A program made the translations under genes and the position numbers. A model generated the notes under the pieces. The model worked only from the letters and a program-made list of their open reading frames with translations, was not told where the DNA came from and made no database searches. Source: Pseudomonadota bacterium (GTDB lineage: Bacteria > Pseudomonadota > Gammaproteobacteria > Competibacterales > Competibacteraceae). From it: a stretch of 33,528 nt of DNA. The stretch is taken from the NCBI GenBank assembly GCA_018240295.1, contig JAFEGB010000348.1:1-33528 (forward strand), written 5' to 3'. Below, in pieces: positions 7,182 through 33,528 of this stretch. Position 1 is the first letter of the stretch; every line of letters begins with the position of its first letter.

Positions 7182-8207
7182 GTGATGAGTCAGCGTTGTT
7201 TCCAGGTGTCGAGCAGTCTGCGACGCCCCCCAGGCCATCACCCCGTAGAGAACCATGGCAAACCCGTAGGCTTCGAGCGGGTGGCCCAGCCATTGCGGAT
7301 CGCTCAGCGCAGCCCGGGTAGTGGTCATCAAATCCAGCAAGCCGATGACCAGCACCAGCGATGTGTCCTTGAACGTGCCGATGGCGATACCGGTCAGGGC
7401 CGGTATCGCCGTACGCATTGCCTGTGGCAGTGCAATCAGCCATGCATAGGAACGTCTGCCAAAGCCCAGAGCCGCTGCAGCTTCCCGTTGTCCGGCCGCA
7501 ATGGCGACCAGTCCTCCGCGAATGGCCTCCGCCATGTAGGCAGCAACGAACAGGATCAGGGCACCGAGGGCCCGCAGCATCTTGTCGGGAGCAGAAGTTT
7601 CCGGCATCAGCAGCGGCAGCATCACCGATGCCATGAACAGCACGCTGATCAGTGGCACAGCCCGCAATGTTTCGATGTAACACATGGCGAATGCACGCAG
7701 GACATATATCCGGCTGGTTCGTGCAAATGCCAGTGCAATGGCCAGAGGTAATGCTCCCAGCAGGGCACCCAGTGTGAGCAGCAAGGTCAGCGGCAAGCCA
7801 CCCCACAGGGCCACAGGAATGGATGGCAGAAGGCCACCACCGGCGATCAGCCAGACATCCAGCAGCAGGATCAGCAGTCCCGCCGGGTATTTCGTGCGGC
7901 CTGGCTGACGTATCAGCCAGAAAAAGCCGGGCAACATCAGCAGCGCGACAGTCGGTCGCCATTGTTCGGATGGTGGATAAAGACCGAATAGAATGAATCT
8001 CCATTTTTCGGCAATGAATATCCAGCAGGCCCCAGCTTGTGAATGGCAGGATTTTGATTCGCCTGACCAGACGGCATCAATGATTGCCCAGCGGATCAGA
8101 AAATACAGCGCCGTTGCCAGCAGGGCACACAACAGAACGAATATTGCACTGGCAGAAAAAGACTTGGATTGCTGGATCTGCCGGTAGATTCGCCATAAAC
8201 CCGGCAT
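7176..8207 (-). CDS. aapM: Polar amino-acid ABC transporter permease, AapM/BztC type
   Basis: An inner-membrane permease subunit of about 343 residues for general L-amino-acid import. The N-terminal part has the AapM/BztC-specific block ACWIFIAEKWRFILFGLYPP and WGGLPLTLLLTLG. The C-terminal core has five or six membrane helices and the EAA loop EAAAALGFGRRSYAWLIALP that contacts the ATPase, followed by GTFKDTSLVLVIGL. Aap systems normally need AapJ (binding protein), AapQ (second permease) and AapP (ATPase), and none of these is within the window. It begins 22-28 bp after the stop of the plasmid initiator gene on the same strand. ATG 8207 is preferred to TTG 8213; neither has a clear ribosome site. 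An orphan permease would need subunits from elsewhere, or it is a leftover of a rearranged operon. Confidence 0.87.
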   Translation of the reverse strand: MPGLWRIYRQIQQSKSFSASAIFVLLCALLATALYFLIRWAIIDAVWSGESKSCHSQAGACWIFIAEKWRFILFGLYPPSEQWRPTVALLMLPGFFWLIRQPGRTKYPAGLLILLLDVWLIAGGGLLPSIPVALWGGLPLTLLLTLGALLGALPLAIALAFARTSRIYVLRAFAMCYIETLRAVPLISVLFMASVMLPLLMPETSAPDKMLRALGALILFVAAYMAEAIRGGLVAIAAGQREAAAALGFGRRSYAWLIALPQAMRTAIPALTGIAIGTFKDTSLVLVIGLLDLMTTTRAALSDPQWLGHPLEAYGFAMVLYGVMAWGASQTARHLETTLTHHM

Positions 8208-8235
8208 CTTCAAGGAGAATCAGCAAGGCAATGGA

Positions 8236-9147
8236 TCATTGGTCAGAATCCGGTAGAACGCGTTTTCCCTTGCGAGGCTTTGCCGTCGCGAGTGCCTGCA
8301 ATTCGAGCATTGGCAGCTCCGTAGCGACCGTGGAGGACTGTGTCCTGCGCACGTGTACGAGATCGTTGTCGTCAATCTGGAAATGCTCGATGAAACCTAC
8401 CCGCTGTAATTCTTCGAGCGCTTCACGCAGACTGACGCGGAAGTTTCGCAACTCCCGCATGTCCGAACCACAACCTTCAAGAATCGTAGCCACCTTGTAT
8501 GGATAAGGTTGAGCGTGGCTGGAATATACGCCGTGCAGATGTTTGGCAAGATTGCCCTTGATCTTGACCCGTTGCTGCCAGTCGATGCGGGTATAATAGA
8601 CATCGCCGAACAATGCCTTGACTTCCGGTTCTATCCAGATGCGCCAGCGTTCGAGTTTTTCTCCGTCCCGACCTTCACATTCGTATTTGCGAATCATTGA
8701 AACACCGATTTCACGTCCCAGTCTGGCAGAGTTGACTACCAGCATCGTGAACTTCATGCGTTTCAGGTGTTCCCGAAGTTTCTTGTAATAATAACCGGTT
8801 GGTGACCAGCGCAAATCCTTCAGGAATTCATAGGGCTTGATTTCGACGCATTGACCGAGAGGCTGGCGGCGGGCCTCGTGCAGCAGTTGCATCCAGACGT
8901 CCATGTCGTCCTGACGCAGCTCGGTACCCGAGTAGGTGATGCAGATGTCGCCACTCAGCACCGCGATGACTTCATCCTTGAATTCGCGACGTGCCACACA
9001 GCGGTTACGGACGTTGAACAGTGCCGAGCGCACGACTTCGTTCGGGACGCCACGCTTTTCCTCATGCCAGAGCGGCAGTTGCAGCGGGTTGTCGATCTGT
9101 GTCGCACGTTGCTGCAACTGATTGAGCTTACGGACAGGATCGGACAC
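8236..9147 (-). CDS. trfA: Plasmid replication initiator, TrfA family
   Basis: A 303-residue initiator that binds origin iterons and recruits the host helicase. It matches TrfA of IncP plasmids along its length: PLWHEEKRGVPNEVVRSALF (residues 25-44), then NVRNR, ITYSGTELRQDDMDVWMQLL, QPLGQCVEI, GYYYKKLREHLKRMKFT and the C-terminal winged helix LREALEELQRVGFIEHF. The start is GTG 9147 with GGAG about nine bases upstream. Iterons lie directly upstream in both orientations, which supports the assignment. Three inverted iterons sit just before its promoter, so it may control its own synthesis. The base composition looks less GC-rich than that of flanking chromosomal-type genes, suggesting acquisition. 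It appears full length with no frameshift. Confidence 0.95.
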   Translation of the reverse strand: MSDPVRKLNQLQQRATQIDNPLQLPLWHEEKRGVPNEVVRSALFNVRNRCVARREFKDEVIAVLSGDICITYSGTELRQDDMDVWMQLLHEARRQPLGQCVEIKPYEFLKDLRWSPTGYYYKKLREHLKRMKFTMLVVNSARLGREIGVSMIRKYECEGRDGEKLERWRIWIEPEVKALFGDVYYTRIDWQQRVKIKGNLAKHLHGVYSSHAQPYPYKVATILEGCGSDMRELRNFRVSLREALEELQRVGFIEHFQIDDNDLVHVRRTQSSTVATELPMLELQALATAKPRKGKRVLPDSDQ

Positions 9148-9176
9148 GTCGGTGACTCCATCTCGCGATGTCTTGC

Positions 9177-9205
9177 AGCATAGGCAATAGCGTGTCGGGG
9201 GTCAG
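9177..9205 (-). promoter_or_regulatory. Candidate promoter of the trfA-like gene
   Basis: On the minus strand: CTGACC (9205-9200), 17 bp, TATGCT (9182-9177), giving a start about 25 bases before GTG 9147. The match is modest. The first inverted iteron begins 4 bp upstream of the -35, so initiator bound there could affect RNA polymerase. Confidence 0.4.
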
Positions 9206-9208
9206 TAA

Positions 9209-9264
9209 CGTAACAAGACCAGCAGGGACGAAAGATGGCCAGCAAGGCACGAAATATGACCAGC
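9209..9264 (-). repeat. Three inverted iterons upstream of the initiator gene
   Basis: Read on the minus strand: GCTGGTCTTGTTACG (9223-9209), GCTGGCCATCTTTCG (9243-9229) and GCTGGTCATATTTCG (9264-9250), at 20-21 bp pitch. They match the direct iterons at 9621-9764 in the opposite orientation. The last one runs into the 14-bp palindrome ACCAGCATGCTGGT (9259-9272). Confidence 0.85.
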
Positions 9265-9395
9265 ATGCTGGTTTGAAGACCATCGATCGACTGTTAGACC
9301 CTGATCTTGGCTATGAAGGCGGCATGCGCTCGCGTCGTGGTGGTTAACTTTGGAGCCGGTCCACGATTCTTCGGCTTGCAGGTTATGACTTGTTC

Positions 9396-9410
9396 GCTGG
9401 CCTTCTTACG
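9396..9410 (+). repeat. Isolated iteron
   Basis: GCTGGCCTTCTTACG differs at one position from the iterons at 9621 and 9728. It stands alone between the inverted and direct clusters. Confidence 0.7.
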
Positions 9411-9513
9411 TGATCCAGATATCCGTGAGTCTTGTGAAGATGGGTGTTAATAATGTAAGCGTTTGATTTTAAAGAATAAAACAAGCCTGATTCGTTGTCG
9501 TTCGCGAATCTGC

Positions 9514-9557
9514 GGTTAAAGATTGGTTAAAGATCGGTTAAAAGACGGTTAGCATTG
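9514..9557 (+). repeat. Four tandem AT-rich 11-mers, likely unwinding element
   Basis: GGTTAAAGATT (9514), GGTTAAAGATC (9525), GGTTAAAAGAC (9536) and a partial copy GGTTAGCATTG (9547) are spaced exactly 11 bp. The even pitch of about one helical turn and AT content next to iterons fit a DNA-unwinding element, like the 13-mers of other plasmid origins. Confidence 0.7.
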
Positions 9558-9620
9558 ATGCGTCATTCCTGAATAATCCAATTGAATCAGTCGATTGCAG
9601 ATGAATATTTACTAGTGTCT

Positions 9621-9764
9621 GCTGGCCTTGTTACGAAAAAGCGCTGGTCAAGTTTCGCGTGCCTGCTGGTCATCTGACGAGGATTTGCTGGCCATCTGAC
9701 GTGTCTGCTGGTCATGTTCCGTGCCCTGCTGGCCTTGTTACGTGGCAGTGCTGGCCATCTTGCG
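9621..9764 (+). repeat. Seven direct iterons, 20-22 bp pitch
   Basis: Units begin at 9621, 9643, 9665, 9687, 9707, 9728 and 9750, with 15-bp core GCTGGYCATSTKRCG (for example GCTGGTCATCTGACG at 9665). The first 5 bases and the terminal CG are invariant. Pitch and count resemble TrfA iterons of IncP plasmids, though the sequence differs. The last two lie over the stop codon and 3' coding end of the GIY-YIG gene. Confidence 0.9.
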
Positions 9765-11336
9765 AATCCCGCCGGGCGGCAGACGCCATACCCGGCAGCC
9801 GTTCTGGCGCAGTCGCGTGAGTTCGCCGGCGAGCACGGAAGCCAGGTCCCAGTCGATGGCTGTCATCGGTCGGTTGAGGGAGGTCGCATCCGCTTCGCCC
9901 TCGCTCTCACCCTCGGTCAGGTGAATCGACAGGAGTTGCCCGCCCTCCTCCCATTGCCAGTGGCGTTTGCGCAGGCGCAGCAACTGTCGGGACCGGATGT
10001 GCAGGCTGGCGATCGTGGCCAGTGCCCGGGCACTGCAGGTGACTGGATCGAAGGTCTCCAGGCGGTGTTCGGTCGCTCCGGCCGATGCCTCTGGTCTGCG
10101 GCCTTGCTCTGATGCATGCCCTTCGCTTTCTTCCGCAGCCGGACCGGTTTCGGTGGACCGATCGTGACGATGGCGTCGGATGGCGCGCGCGAGCAGGCTG
10201 CGCCGGTCTGGCGGATGCTGCCACGCCGCCAGCAGCACGGTTCGCACGGCGTCCGGTTGCGGGGTTTCATCGCTCCGCGCAGCGGTGATCCCTTGCAGCC
10301 TGCGAAGGTCGCCGTCGAACACGGCCTCGCAGGCGCCGAGCCAGAGTTCGACATTCCAGCTCCCGCTCCACGGACCGATCCGGTATCGCTGGTCGTGCCC
10401 GGTCGCGACCATACCCAGCTCGTGATCGAGCCAGTACAGCGGACGCCGGGATTGCTTCAGCGCGGTGTTGAACGGCGGGTCGAGATGCTGGATTTCGCGG
10501 CATTCGAGGATCGCGGCATGCACGGCGCTCGCACAGACCGTGGTTTCGATCCCGGTCGCACGGGTCAGCAGTTCGCGGATTGCGGCGCTATCCCCCCGGC
10601 GCTTGCGGAAATAGCTGTTTACGCGCTTGTGCAGGGATGTGGCCTTGCCGACGTACAGCACCTGCCCGCGGGCATCGAGATAGCGATAGACCCCCGGGGC
10701 ATCCGGCAGGGCCAGTCGCAGCCGGCGATCGAGGCCGTATTCGCGTGCTCCGGTGCTGGCTGGTCCGCTCGGTTCGCTCAGCCAGGCCAGCAGCGCCGGC
10801 AGGGTCCGGATGCCGTGGTCCGCGAGTTCGGCCAGCATGGCGCGCCAGATCGCCCGTGTGGCGGCAACGTGATCGGTGGCGCGATGGCGCTGTGCCGGTT
10901 CGCTGCCCAGGCGGCCTGCCAGGGCAGCGAGCGAATGGCTGGGCAGGCGCGGATGCAGGCGTCTGGACAGGGCGTGCAGACAGATCAGCGGCGGCAGCTC
11001 GTCACCGAACCAGGCACGCAGCCAGGCCGCTTCGAAGCGCAGGTAATGCGCGACGATCGCAGCCGAGGCTCCCAGCACCGGCGCGAGCCGTTCGCGGGCG
11101 GCGAGCGCTGACAAAGCTCCCGCCGTGCCGGGTTCACAGCCGCGCCGGCGCAGGATCGCGGGCAGGCGCGCCAGGGCCGGCAGCGCGATCGGGCAGGACT
11201 CGATGGCCTCTCCGGCCGAAGTCTGCAGCCACCAGGCGAGATCGAAGGGATGATCGACGTCCGGGCGGGGACCGGTCGCCTGCAGATCGAGCAGCAGCAG
11301 CGGCAGGGTTTCGAGCCGCTGTTCCTGCGTGCTCAT
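9738..11336 (-). CDS. DEDD exonuclease-like / GIY-YIG endonuclease fusion (Cho/UvrC-like)
   Basis: A 532-residue two-domain protein. Residues about 10-170 have a DnaQ-like fold, but the active site is altered: LLLDLQATG has Gln where DxE needs Glu, and ExoII reads HYLRFEAAWL with Glu where Asp is expected. The ExoIII His and Asp (HRATDHVAAT, 151-155) remain. Residues about 208-295 are a UvrC-like GIY-YIG nuclease with an intact set: GVY (215-217), LYVGKA (227-232), Arg238 and Glu278. The remaining 230 residues are an uncharacterised tail. Related fusions are known near Cho and UvrC, which cut damaged DNA 3' of lesions. Here the nuclease probably survives while the exonuclease domain may only bind. 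It overlaps the DUF4202 gene by 4 bp (ATGA) and its 3' end contains two origin iterons. Confidence 0.82.
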   Translation of the reverse strand: MSTQEQRLETLPLLLLDLQATGPRPDVDHPFDLAWWLQTSAGEAIESCPIALPALARLPAILRRRGCEPGTAGALSALAARERLAPVLGASAAIVAHYLRFEAAWLRAWFGDELPPLICLHALSRRLHPRLPSHSLAALAGRLGSEPAQRHRATDHVAATRAIWRAMLAELADHGIRTLPALLAWLSEPSGPASTGAREYGLDRRLRLALPDAPGVYRYLDARGQVLYVGKATSLHKRVNSYFRKRRGDSAAIRELLTRATGIETTVCASAVHAAILECREIQHLDPPFNTALKQSRRPLYWLDHELGMVATGHDQRYRIGPWSGSWNVELWLGACEAVFDGDLRRLQGITAARSDETPQPDAVRTVLLAAWQHPPDRRSLLARAIRRHRHDRSTETGPAAEESEGHASEQGRRPEASAGATEHRLETFDPVTCSARALATIASLHIRSRQLLRLRKRHWQWEEGGQLLSIHLTEGESEGEADATSLNRPMTAIDWDLASVLAGELTRLRQNGCRVWRLPPGGIRKMASTAT

Positions 11337-11923
11337 GCCTGCGTCGGTGCCAGCGCCTGCGCGACGATCGATTGCGCGTAGTCCGACAGGGACAGCGTCA
11401 GCGCAGCCGAGCGGCCGTGTTCGGACATCTTCGCCCAGGTCTTGCGCACGATGGCGATGACCTTGGCCGGATCGTGCTGCGGACCGAAGTTATCGAAGTC
11501 GTGTTCGAGGAAGGCCAGGCAGATGGCGTCCTCGAGCGCCTGCGCTTCCGGGTCGAGCTTCAGCCGCTCGCGCCGGATCAGGGCGCCGACCCGGCTGATC
11601 AGCTCGGGCTCGTAGCCAAGCGCGCCCAGCACGCCGGCGGCGACCTCGGCATGGATGCGCTTCAGCTCCAGGCGCCAGCGCAGATAGCCTTCGCGCGTCA
11701 TCGGCCATTGCGAACGCGGGTGTTCCCAGCGGCGCAGATGATGGGCGCGCGCTGCGAGCAGCAGGGCTTCGCTCGCCTGCGGATGCAGGCGTTCGATCCA
11801 TTGCGAAACGCTGCGGGCGTGGACCAGCGTGCGCGGGGTCGGCACGCCGGCTACTTCGATGCGCTGCGGATCCTCGGCGTTGATGGCGTCGAAGGCAGCG
11901 AGAGCGTCGGCGGTTCGGGACAT
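11333..11923 (-). CDS. DUF4202 family protein
   Basis: A 196-residue soluble protein matching DUF4202. Visible family blocks are AINAEDPQRIEVAG near the start, AARAHHLRRWEHPRSQWPMTREGYLRWR (about 57-84), LEDAICLAFLEHDF (about 130-143) and a C-terminal IVRKTWAKMSEHG. Paired histidines in the AHH segment and the KRIHAEVA segment, with the later Asp/Glu-rich helix, recall an all-helical HD-like metal-site protein, but no activity is established for the family. It overlaps the start of the exonuclease/GIY-YIG gene by four bases, so the two are probably co-translated. It lies downstream of parAB on the same strand, separated by a parS-like palindrome. Whether it serves the replicon or is cargo is unknown. 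Confidence 0.85.
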   Translation of the reverse strand: MSRTADALAAFDAINAEDPQRIEVAGVPTPRTLVHARSVSQWIERLHPQASEALLLAARAHHLRRWEHPRSQWPMTREGYLRWRLELKRIHAEVAAGVLGALGYEPELISRVGALIRRERLKLDPEAQALEDAICLAFLEHDFDNFGPQHDPAKVIAIVRKTWAKMSEHGRSAALTLSLSDYAQSIVAQALAPTQA

Positions 11924-12034: not shown

Positions 12035-12958
12035 TCAGGTGCCTGATTCGTTGCGGTCCGGGCCGGATTCCGCCAGCAGGGCTTCGACGAAGCTTCGCAG
12101 TCGCTGTTCCTGCGCGCCGCTGAGGGCGTCGACCTTCAGGCGGATCACGAAGTGTGCGGCGTCCCGCGAGACGGTGCCGACGTGCTGCCCTTCGCGCGTG
12201 AAGCGATGCAGCGCGCGTTCGACAGCCTTGCGCTGCGGGGCGGGTTCAGCCTTGCCGAGACCGGCGGCGACAAAGGCGGCGAGCCGGGTCTGCTGCAGCT
12301 CGCCGGCTTCGAGCTTCGTCCAGGCCTCGCGCAGCAGCGGCAGGGCGCGTTCATCGGCCAGCATGCGTTTCACGTCGGCCGCCGCCGCCCGCGACAGCAG
12401 CCGGGGCTGTGCATCGAGCCGGGCCCGCAGATCCTCGGGCAGCGCCTCGAAGGCCAGATACTTGTAGAGGTCCTCGCGGGTGCGACCCAGGGCTTCGGCA
12501 AGCTTGGCCTTGGAGGGAAACTGATCCTCGATGCGGCGGATGGCGATGCCGATCTCGTAATCGCTGAGATCCTCGCGCTCCATGTTCTCGGCCAGCGCCG
12601 TGACCGCCATGCGCGCATCGTCGGCGTCCTGCACCAGCGCCTCGATGGTGGGCTTGCCGAGCAGCCGGCAGGCCCGCCAGCGGCGTTCACCGGCGACCAG
12701 CTGCCAGCGCTCGCCCGCCGGGCGCACGACGACCGGCTGGTGCTGGCCGAGTTCGGCGATCGAGCCGGCGAGCCGGCGAAGCTCGTCCTCGTCGAACACC
12801 TTGCGCGGCTGGAACGGATTCGGATCGATCGCATCGACCGGCAGCATCAGGTGGCGGCGACCGGCGTCGAAACCGAGCTCCTGACGGGCGCTGCTGTGAC
12901 GCTGATGGTTCTCTTCGAGCCGGCGGGCCAGCTCGGCCTTGCGGTCACGCGGGCTCAT
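12035..12958 (-). CDS. parB: ParB-type partition protein
   Basis: A 307-residue centromere-binding protein and probable CTP-dependent clamp. The N-terminal domain has the family blocks NPFQPRKVFDEDELRRLAGSI (about 47-67), QPVVVRP, VAGERRWRA with the GERRxRA nucleotide motif (about 90-96), and ENMEREDLSDYE (about 127-138). A helix-turn-helix follows, PSKAKLAEALGRTREDLYKYLAF (about 149-171), for parS recognition. The C-terminal part would dimerise. Its ATG overlaps the parA stop by four bases, the usual parAB operon form. Palindromes sit immediately beyond both ends of parAB, consistent with its binding sites. It is closer to plasmid-type ParB than to the chromosomal protein near gidAB, whose parS (TGTTNCACGTGAAACA) is not seen here. 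Confidence 0.93.
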   Translation of the reverse strand: MSPRDRKAELARRLEENHQRHSSARQELGFDAGRRHLMLPVDAIDPNPFQPRKVFDEDELRRLAGSIAELGQHQPVVVRPAGERWQLVAGERRWRACRLLGKPTIEALVQDADDARMAVTALAENMEREDLSDYEIGIAIRRIEDQFPSKAKLAEALGRTREDLYKYLAFEALPEDLRARLDAQPRLLSRAAAADVKRMLADERALPLLREAWTKLEAGELQQTRLAAFVAAGLGKAEPAPQRKAVERALHRFTREGQHVGTVSRDAAHFVIRLKVDALSGAQEQRLRSFVEALLAESGPDRNESGT

Positions 12959-13770
12959 TCGTCCTCCTCCCCGCTCACGCTCAGCTGCAGTTCGGCGGCC
13001 AGCGCCACGGCCAGCTGATGGAATTCGCGCGAGACCTTCGCGCTCCGGTCCCAGCGGTGCAGGCTGGCATTGGCCATCGCCGCCTGCTCGACCTTGGTGC
13101 TGGTCGAGATGCGCACCGGCAGCAGCCGGCCGATCTCGGCCCTGGCCGTACCCTCGATCAGCTTGCAGACGGTCTGGCGTTCGTCGTGACGCATCAGCAG
13201 CGCACCGAGCAGCGCCAGCCCGGGGTTGATGCGCCGGATCATGCCGACGTGATGCATCAGGTCGGTGACGCCGTACATGCCGTACTGCGAGCCGGAGATC
13301 ACCGGGATGATCAGATGCGTGGCAGCGGCCAGCGCGTTGCTGGTCAGCAGCTTCAGGCTGGGCGGGCAGTCCATCAGCACCACGTCGTAGATGCCATCGA
13401 GCGGCGCGAGCTTGCTGCGCAGTTCCTCGGCCGGGCGGGGCGTGCGTTCGCGCAGCTGGTCCTCGGTGCGCCCGAGCGCCAGCGAGCCGTAGATCAGCGC
13501 CACGCCCTCGATGTTGGTGTCGTCATGGATCGCCAGCGGCAGTTTTTCCGGCTCGGCGAGCAGCAGTTCGGCGCAGGTGACGGGCACCTCGCTCGGGTGC
13601 TTGCGTCCGACGTGCAGGCTGGCATTGGCCTGCGGATCGAGATCGACGATCAGCACCGACAGGCCGAGGCGCGCGAATTCGGCCCCCAGGTGCACGACGG
13701 TCGTCGTCTTGCCGCAGCCGCCCTTGTGGTTGGCGACGGCGATGAAACAGGTCCGGCGTTCAGCTGCCAC
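12955..13770 (-). CDS. parA: ParA-type partition ATPase
   Basis: A 271-residue Walker-type ATPase that positions replicon copies on the nucleoid with ParB. The deviant Walker A motif NHKGGCGKTTT is at residues 14-24 with the signature lysine (KGG). The second motif VDLDPQANAS is near 43-52, and Walker B VVLMDCPPS near 130-138. There is no N-terminal helix-turn-helix, so it is a short ParA, like chromosomal Soj or small plasmid ParAs, and would not repress its own operon in the manner of P1 ParA. The start is GTG 13770, preceded by a strong GAGGAGG site nine bases upstream. A good promoter lies at 13807-13835 and a palindrome at 13880-13904. Confidence 0.95.
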   Translation of the reverse strand: MAAERRTCFIAVANHKGGCGKTTTVVHLGAEFARLGLSVLIVDLDPQANASLHVGRKHPSEVPVTCAELLLAEPEKLPLAIHDDTNIEGVALIYGSLALGRTEDQLRERTPRPAEELRSKLAPLDGIYDVVLMDCPPSLKLLTSNALAAATHLIIPVISGSQYGMYGVTDLMHHVGMIRRINPGLALLGALLMRHDERQTVCKLIEGTARAEIGRLLPVRISTSTKVEQAAMANASLHRWDRSAKVSREFHQLAVALAAELQLSVSGEEDE

Positions 13771-24042: not shown

Positions 24043-24352
24043 CGTGGTGTCCTCTTTTTGATCAGCGCGATGGAGCCTGCAACGGTCGCGGATACCCGCC
24101 GGCGACCGCAGCCCGGAGGCTGCAATCATAATGCGGCAGGTCTGCACCGTAGCGGTAGATGGACAAGCGCAAGGCCGGTTTCATGGGTATCGAAACCATG
24201 TTCCGCTGCTGGACAACTGGCGGTAATGCTGGCTCTGGCAGGAATTGCGCTGTGCATCCGCGGCCGCTCCTGCTATGCAATGTCAAGCAAACTTGACAAC
24301 AATCGAGGTCAATGGAAACGATGCTTACCTTTTCGATCCCATCGGCGGTCCG
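24043..24352. other. Divergent intergenic region
   Basis: Holds the leaders of the leftward small protein/GGDEF-EAL genes and of the rightward uracil-DNA glycosylase. TTGACA (24293-24298) on the plus strand is a good -35, but the best -10 at 18 bp (AACGAT) is poor. Nothing else is recognised. Confidence 0.4.
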
Positions 24353-32916: not shown

Positions 32917-33528
32917 TCAGGCCGGACGTTCGAGGCCGGCGAAGAACAGATCGACCAGCGGGCCGGCCTCGTCGGCGAGCCGGTAGCGCAGGTCCGGCGC
33001 GAACAGCCAGTCGCTGATCGTGCCGAGCATGTAGTTATGCAGCGCGATCGCCGCGCGCCGCGGTTCGACACCATCGCGCAACTGCCCGAGCGCGTGCGCG
33101 CGTGCGAGCACGGTTTCACTGTGCTCGACGAAACACTTGTTCTGCTGGTCGAAGCGCAGGCACAGCTCGCCGAGTTCGTCGACGTACTCGCACTTGTGCA
33201 GCAGCACCGCCAGCACCTGCTGCAGTTGCGGGCAGGCGGCGATGTCCTGCAGGTCGAGCACGCAGCGCTCGCGCAGCGCCGCCAGCGGGTCTTCGGCGTG
33301 CAGCAGCTTTTCCATCGCCTCGGTGAACGGCAGCGCGACGCGTTCGTGCATCGCGTTGAACAGTTCGAGCTTGTTCGCGAAATGCCAGTAGATCGCGCCG
33401 CGCGTCAGCCCGGCGGCCGTCGCGATCTCGGCGAGCGTGGTGCGCGAGACGCCCTTCGTGAAGAACAGGCGTTCGGCGGTGTCGAGGATCAGCGAGCGCG
33501 TCTGCTCGGCCTCGGCCTTGGTGCGTCT
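32917..33528 (-). CDS. TetR/AcrR-family repressor, 5' end cut by window
   Basis: At least 203 residues; the reading frame is open to the window edge, and the first visible residues RRTKAEAEQTRSLILDTAE match the start of AcrR/TtgR-like regulators, so only a few codons are missing. The helix-turn-helix TTLAEIATAAGLTRGAIYWHF is intact (about 30-50 from the visible start), followed by the FANKLELF linker and a helical ligand-binding domain. The closest kin normally repress RND pump operons. The pump genes in this window are 1.9 kb away with a transpeptidase between them, so control of that pump is possible but not shown; its own divergent partner would lie beyond base 33528. Confidence 0.92.
   Translation of the reverse strand, partial: RRTKAEAEQTRSLILDTAERLFFTKGVSRTTLAEIATAAGLTRGAIYWHFANKLELFNAMHERVALPFTEAMEKLLHAEDPLAALRERCVLDLQDIAACPQLQQVLAVLLHKCEYVDELGELCLRFDQQNKCFVEHSETVLARAHALGQLRDGVEPRRAAIALHNYMLGTISDWLFAPDLRYRLADEAGPLVDLFFAGLERPA

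Follow-up and report, generated by a model that had tools for sequence, protein, structure and literature searches.

An opposed iteron array beside a trfA-like initiator gene in a Competibacteraceae genome: a recurrent layout with a probable role in copy-number control

The DNA analysed here (the window) is the whole of contig C275, 33,528 bp, from a Competibacteraceae genome of 350 contigs and 4.06 Mb (G000). A trfA-like replication initiator gene with a GTG start lies on its minus strand at 8236–9147 and encodes a protein of 303 amino acids. Residues 22–268 of the protein match PF07042 (TrfA; E = 1.5e-49, 169 bits against a cut-off of 22), and 625 plasmid records match as well, the closest being TrfA of Nitrosococcus watsonii plasmid pNWAT01 (48% identity); together these place the product in the TrfA family. 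A comparison with solved structures returned no sequence match at E 0.1. Near the N terminus the protein carries QLPLW; a QLxxW motif occurs in 10 of 17 aligned TrfA proteins, with the tryptophan in all 17, and we take the clamp-binding motif of RK2 TrfA to lie near this position. The same genome encodes DnaA on another contig, C15, and a second TrfA on contig C330 (L013, G000:C330:15471-17132) that is 54% identical to the one in the window. The C330 gene has its own array of eight exact AACTCAAAACCCGAA copies in both orientations, one in the gene end and seven downstream, and, with iterons so dissimilar, the two TrfA replicons of this genome are expected to be compatible with each other. Elsewhere in the class, two TrfA-like readings with internal stops (G338:C36:10459-11253 and G197:C303:738-1514) appear to be decaying copies. 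An Rfam scan of the window gave no matches at the gathering score.

Eleven iterons fitting a single matrix lie upstream of the gene: seven forward, one solitary forward and three reverse. The 17-bp matrix was built from the seven forward repeats at 9619–9764 only and scanned across the window, and its chance level was set by 20 first-order Markov sequences of window length, whose maxima were 11.6–18.9 bits. The seven forward iterons (plus strand; starts 9619, 9641, 9663, 9685, 9705, 9726 and 9748) score 18.2–24.1 bits, being the ones that define the matrix, and are 20–22 bp apart, forming a direct-repeat array with steps of about two helical turns near the initiator gene. The solitary forward iteron (9394–9410, plus strand) scores 20.1 bits. 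The three reverse iterons, on the minus strand at 9209–9225 (CTGCTGGTCTTGTTACG, 23.8 bits), 9229–9245 (TTGCTGGCCATCTTTCG, 21.7 bits) and 9250–9266 (ATGCTGGTCATATTTCG, 17.0 bits), are spaced by 20 and 21 bp. The first two each exceed the chance maxima. The third falls inside the chance range when taken alone and is comparable to a background site at 24206 (16.9 bits); we accept it on the strength of its 21-bp register. A sequence-only reading of this DNA had proposed three iterons in reverse orientation here, and the matrix recovers all three. A de novo repeat search found 10 repeats at the locus versus 3 in its simulated sequence.

The outermost reverse iteron had also been described as running into a palindrome. 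This palindrome, ACCAGCATGCTGGT, is present and perfect over 14 bp (9259–9272), where the outer half of reverse iteron 3 meets an adjacent half-iteron in inverted orientation, but the window holds nine palindromes of 14 bp where 8.2 are expected. At chance frequency the feature carries no weight by itself, and we rejected it as evidence for a separate operator.

Between the main array and the solitary iteron, the stretch 9420–9618 is AT-rich (57–68% A+T in 40-base steps) and is probably an unwinding element; 9001–9600 is the 600-base step with the lowest G+C content of the contig. An 11-bp repeat, CGGTTAAAGAT, is present there in 3.5 copies (9513–9551, plus strand; Tandem Repeats Finder score 55), so that the array adjoins AT-rich DNA containing short repeats, the predicted unwinding region. 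DnaA boxes were set aside as support, since a single DnaA-box-like sequence within one mismatch was found, the weak site TTATTAACA at 9445–9453 (minus strand). The TrfA family assignment, the 11 iterons and the AT-rich stretch with its 11-bp repeats lend good support to the earlier claim that the iterons belong to the adjoining initiator gene. We conclude that the region 8236–9764 is a TrfA-type (IncP-like) theta replicon, complete with its replication origin. A distant DNA search of plasmids with 9140–9780 returned a single short match, covering 6% of the query at E 0.05, on an E. coli plasmid, and scans of viral contigs for the iteron pattern and for the protein pattern were both empty.

A candidate trfA promoter is predicted on the minus strand at 9177–9205, with CTGACC as the -35 element (9205–9200), a 17-bp spacer and TATGCT as the -10 element (9182–9177). 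At 8 of 12 matches it is weak, with a chance expectation of 0.08 per 66 nt and 0.24 per 141 nt; it is the sole candidate with at least seven matches on the minus strand from 9280 to 9140, and a stricter scan requiring at least 9 of 12 does not return it. Its position agrees with the transcript start near 9170 implied by the sequence-only reading. The iterons do adjoin the predicted -35 as that reading held, although the gap is 3 bp (last iteron base at 9209, -35 start at 9205) and not 4 bp, and they do not overlap the core promoter.

The last forward iteron lies within the 3' end of a gene at 9738–11336 whose product is an exonuclease-like and UvrC-like GIY-YIG protein; its matches in 38 other genomes of the family span parts of the protein only. 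Beyond it, on the minus strand, are a parB-like partition gene (12035–12958; PF02195, 2.2e-25; TIGR00180) and a parA-like partition ATPase gene (12955–13770; PF13614, 1e-37). Close relatives of this ParAB pair (12035–13770) occur in G007:C222 and G018:C58 (ParA 76–77%, ParB about 55%), two family genomes in neither of which TrfA was found. The ParB type is present at more than 50% identity in 3 of 38 other family genomes, one of these being a fragment.

In the metagenome-assembled genome SZAS-76, a contig of 3,661 bp (L018) matches window positions 7770–11430 at 98.55% identity. Of 53 differences, 43 fall in the nuclease-like gene 9738–11336 or beyond; the remainder comprise three in the 590 bp between genes, two in trfA and five in a permease gene. 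None lies inside an iteron, and none within 9206–9272; these 67 unchanged bases mean little, because identity with SZAS-76 is too high to test constraint. The uneven distribution, with 43 of 53 differences at 9738 or beyond and 10 elsewhere, is what a recombination boundary at the origin might produce.

The arrangement was compared across 23 TrfA loci: the window, C330 and 21 plasmids hand-picked among the 625 matching records. The search unit was the largest family of 15-mers with up to three mismatches on both strands within 1.5 kb of trfA, and for each locus a single first-order Markov sequence served as control, the largest simulated family being five. Plasmid pALTS32 (L146) was excluded because its record ends at trfA; L005–L007, L009 and L011 were part of a first survey only, and L008 and the TrfA loci L094–L100 of neither. 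Arrays above the simulated maximum of five were found at 20 of the 23 loci, whereas L077 and L078 (five repeats each) and L144 (three) do not exceed it. At least two iterons in each orientation are present in 12 of these 20 (window, C330, L081, L082, L084, L086, L087, L088, L089, L140, L143 and L145), a count that overstates independence, as do the others here, because the related pairs L089/L140, L084/L145 and L142/L143 were counted separately. Several Pseudomonas-type iterons are partly palindromic, making individual orientation calls at these loci less secure; L081 is affected most, with 6 of its 10 copies ambiguous. With the ambiguous copies set aside, all 12 loci retain at least two clear iterons each way. 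A single inverted iteron occurs at two loci (L083 and L142) and iterons all in one orientation at six (L076, L079, L080, L085, L093 and L139), so that a TrfA replicon can do without opposed sets. A literature search for TrfA iterons in opposite orientation found nothing.

The array lies upstream of trfA in 6 of the 20 loci (window, L079, L082, L086, L089 and L140) and downstream, away from the promoter, in the other 14. Four of the six upstream loci (window, L086, L089 and L140) share one layout, consisting of a distal array, an AT-rich spot (58–68% A+T in 60-base steps), an opposed proximal array, a promoter-like sequence and trfA. In all four, the last proximal iteron ends 44–61 nt before the start codon and the promoter-like sequence begins 3–10 nt past it. 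Since L089 and L140 are related, the shared layout represents at best three independent cases. A fifth replicon whose upstream iterons are opposed, L082, lacks any 8/12 promoter candidate within the final 120 nt, and an additional 8/12 candidate lies inside the proximal array of L086 and of L089. We regard the locus as a further member of the TrfA iteron replicons, one with a recurrent layout.

The three other plasmids with this layout are TrfA plasmids of Burkholderiales, from C. metallidurans ZM16 (L086) and Burkholderia (L089 and L140, the latter pTGL1). The Burkholderia iterons are CATCGCTGGAGGAACGA-like and have the GCTGG...ACG polarity in common with the window. The Burkholderiales plasmids differ from the window in having 7–12 proximal iterons where the window has three, in a stronger promoter-like sequence (9/12) that starts 10 nt from the last iteron, and in their TrfA proteins, which are 40–42% identical to that of the window. 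With RK2 and the IncP-1 plasmids the window shares a TrfA-family initiator and an iteron array, with steps of 22–23 bp in the IncP-1 records L142 and L143. The 17-bp length is also shared, as is a mostly direct orientation with inversion: eight direct iterons and one inverted are given for IncP-1 sigma plasmids (PMC3960245). RK2 likewise has outlying iterons, i1 and i10, single copies that flank oriV on both sides, are mutually inverted and have a role in copy control; copy number roughly doubles when either is removed, and a negative action of TrfA dimers via all iterons is also reported (PMC6961859). There are also differences. The window iteron is TGCTGGYCWTSTTACG-like and not TGACA...GAGGGGC, there is one weak DnaA-box-like site only, the array is upstream of and adjoins trfA whereas those of L142 and L143 are downstream, and the window TrfA is only about 36% identical to IncP-1 TrfA (L142, L143). 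Assignment of the window replicon to the IncP-1 (RK2) incompatibility group was accordingly rejected, given the differing iterons and the low TrfA identity.

The sequence-only reading had proposed that the opposed iterons serve copy-number control by self-repression or handcuffing. Copy control is a fair reading, given opposed sets at 12 of 20 loci and the inverted-iteron data for RK2 (PMC6961859), and an opposed-iteron layout of this kind is known and ordinary and probably helps to hold copy number in check. Self-repression fares less well. Initiator sites at the initiator's own promoter, along with separate control iterons, are also found in the F plasmid with RepE and in V. cholerae with RctB, initiators that we take to belong to families other than TrfA. 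As described, RepE represses its own gene through an operator between promoter and gene (PMC13028717) and RctB represses its own gene through a site in its promoter (PMC6090056), whereas the window sites are upstream of the predicted -35. An auto-repressor would be marked by an initiator site on the promoter core, the place where a simple repressor would sit; in the window the sites end 3 bp short of a weak predicted -35, leaving the predicted core promoter uncovered, which weakens the case for simple repression as far as this weak prediction can be relied on. Copy control is thus our best reading of the opposed iterons, and repression of trfA is put forward as a proposal.

In the full proposal, the initiator encoded at 8236–9147 would bind the 17-bp iterons, namely the main seven, the solitary one and the opposed three beside its own promoter. 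By analogy with RK2, we infer that initiator monomers on the main array would open the AT-rich stretch and start replication. Once initiator became plentiful, initiator bound to the opposed array would link to the main array, either on its own molecule or on a sister, and initiator bound beside the -35 may lower trfA transcription. Both the coupling and the lowered transcription would keep copy number down. We lean modestly towards this combined account.

The principal competitor, which we consider unlikely yet the most credible of the alternatives, is that the reverse array forms a second working half of the origin that opens the AT-rich stretch or loads helicase for bidirectional initiation, any effect on trfA being incidental. 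The polarity of the arrays is consistent with it: the iterons of both arrays turn their GCTGG end towards the AT-rich spot in the window and in the two Burkholderia plasmids, so that the arrays diverge from it, the corresponding CATCGGTAG end does so in L086, and the proximal and distal iterons of L086, L089 and L140 are mirror images around that spot. The solitary iteron of the window is the exception; it has the other polarity and lies between the reverse array and the AT-rich stretch, which, along with the small size of the reverse array (just three iterons) and its distance of about 150 bp from the AT-rich stretch, argues against a second half-origin. Strand composition also bears on the matter. 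Cumulative G–C skew reaches its minimum around 9 kb, where trfA and the iterons lie. Third-codon-position skew, read on the plus strand for 13 genes, is negative for three of the four genes to the left of trfA and positive both for trfA itself and for seven of the eight to the right of the origin, a change of sign expected if forks leave both ways; however, the signal is small, and it is confounded because all eight genes to the right are on the minus strand.

A simpler account, in which the reverse iterons merely soak up initiator as a titration site with no effect on promoter or coupling, would fit the frequency of iterons outside the main cluster across the survey. Against it counts the placement directly before a promoter-like sequence, which recurs in every replicon with opposed upstream iterons except L082 (four of five), and we consider titration alone quite improbable. 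Least probable by a clear distance is that initiator on the reverse array activates trfA transcription, in a positive feedback limited by titration. In its favour, the sites span roughly -39 to -96 relative to the predicted start, stop short of the -35 where an activator would sit, and leave free the core of a weak promoter; against this, we know of no iteron initiator that activates its own gene. The precedents found are of repression (RctB, PMC6090056; RepE, PMC13028717).

Evidence on the larger molecule comes from the contig ends and the flanking genes. The left end (1–127) is a repeat with two copies each in G000 and the related genomes G022 and G023, and at least four of the six copies are at a contig end. 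No RNA genes were found in the first 6–8 kb beside the repeat (C30, G022:C1 and G023:C7), so that its flanking an rRNA operon is a guess. The right end (33405–33528) overlaps contig C349 by 124 identical bases. From the end repeat and this overlap, the contig probably belongs to a larger molecule. Several genes outside the trfA and par blocks have 67–80% identical DNA in G022 and G023, scattered over large contigs. With 40 candidates scored per genome, none of the matches listed for these two genomes extends over trfA and the iterons, and a syntenic empty site lacking trfA was not found in the G022 and G023 stretches around the permease relatives. Together, the end repeats, the overlap, the skew and the flanking-gene matches fit a replication origin within a larger molecule, whether plasmid, chromid or integrated replicon.

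The chromid-like reading is supported, not conclusively, by the 67–80% identity of flanking genes in relatives, by the left-end repeat at contig ends of two relatives and by the skew turn at the origin. Its fullest form, in which the TrfA origin drives a chromid-like replicon with ordinary chromosomal genes and two arrays of mirror polarity flank one unwinding region and serve both initiation and control, is in our judgement a long shot, on a level with titration alone. A literature search, judged by titles and abstract openings, showed no apparent TrfA origin on a chromid.

Returning to the reading we prefer, copy control by opposed iterons, the window presents a compact TrfA replicon whose iteron sequence and layout differ from those of IncP-1. 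The 67 bp at its initiator promoter offer a case for telling apart repression, coupling and a second half-origin. The nature of the molecule, be it plasmid, chromid or chromosome with an integrated replicon, may be of greater interest still; if the chromid reading were true, this would be a TrfA origin carrying chromosomal genes.
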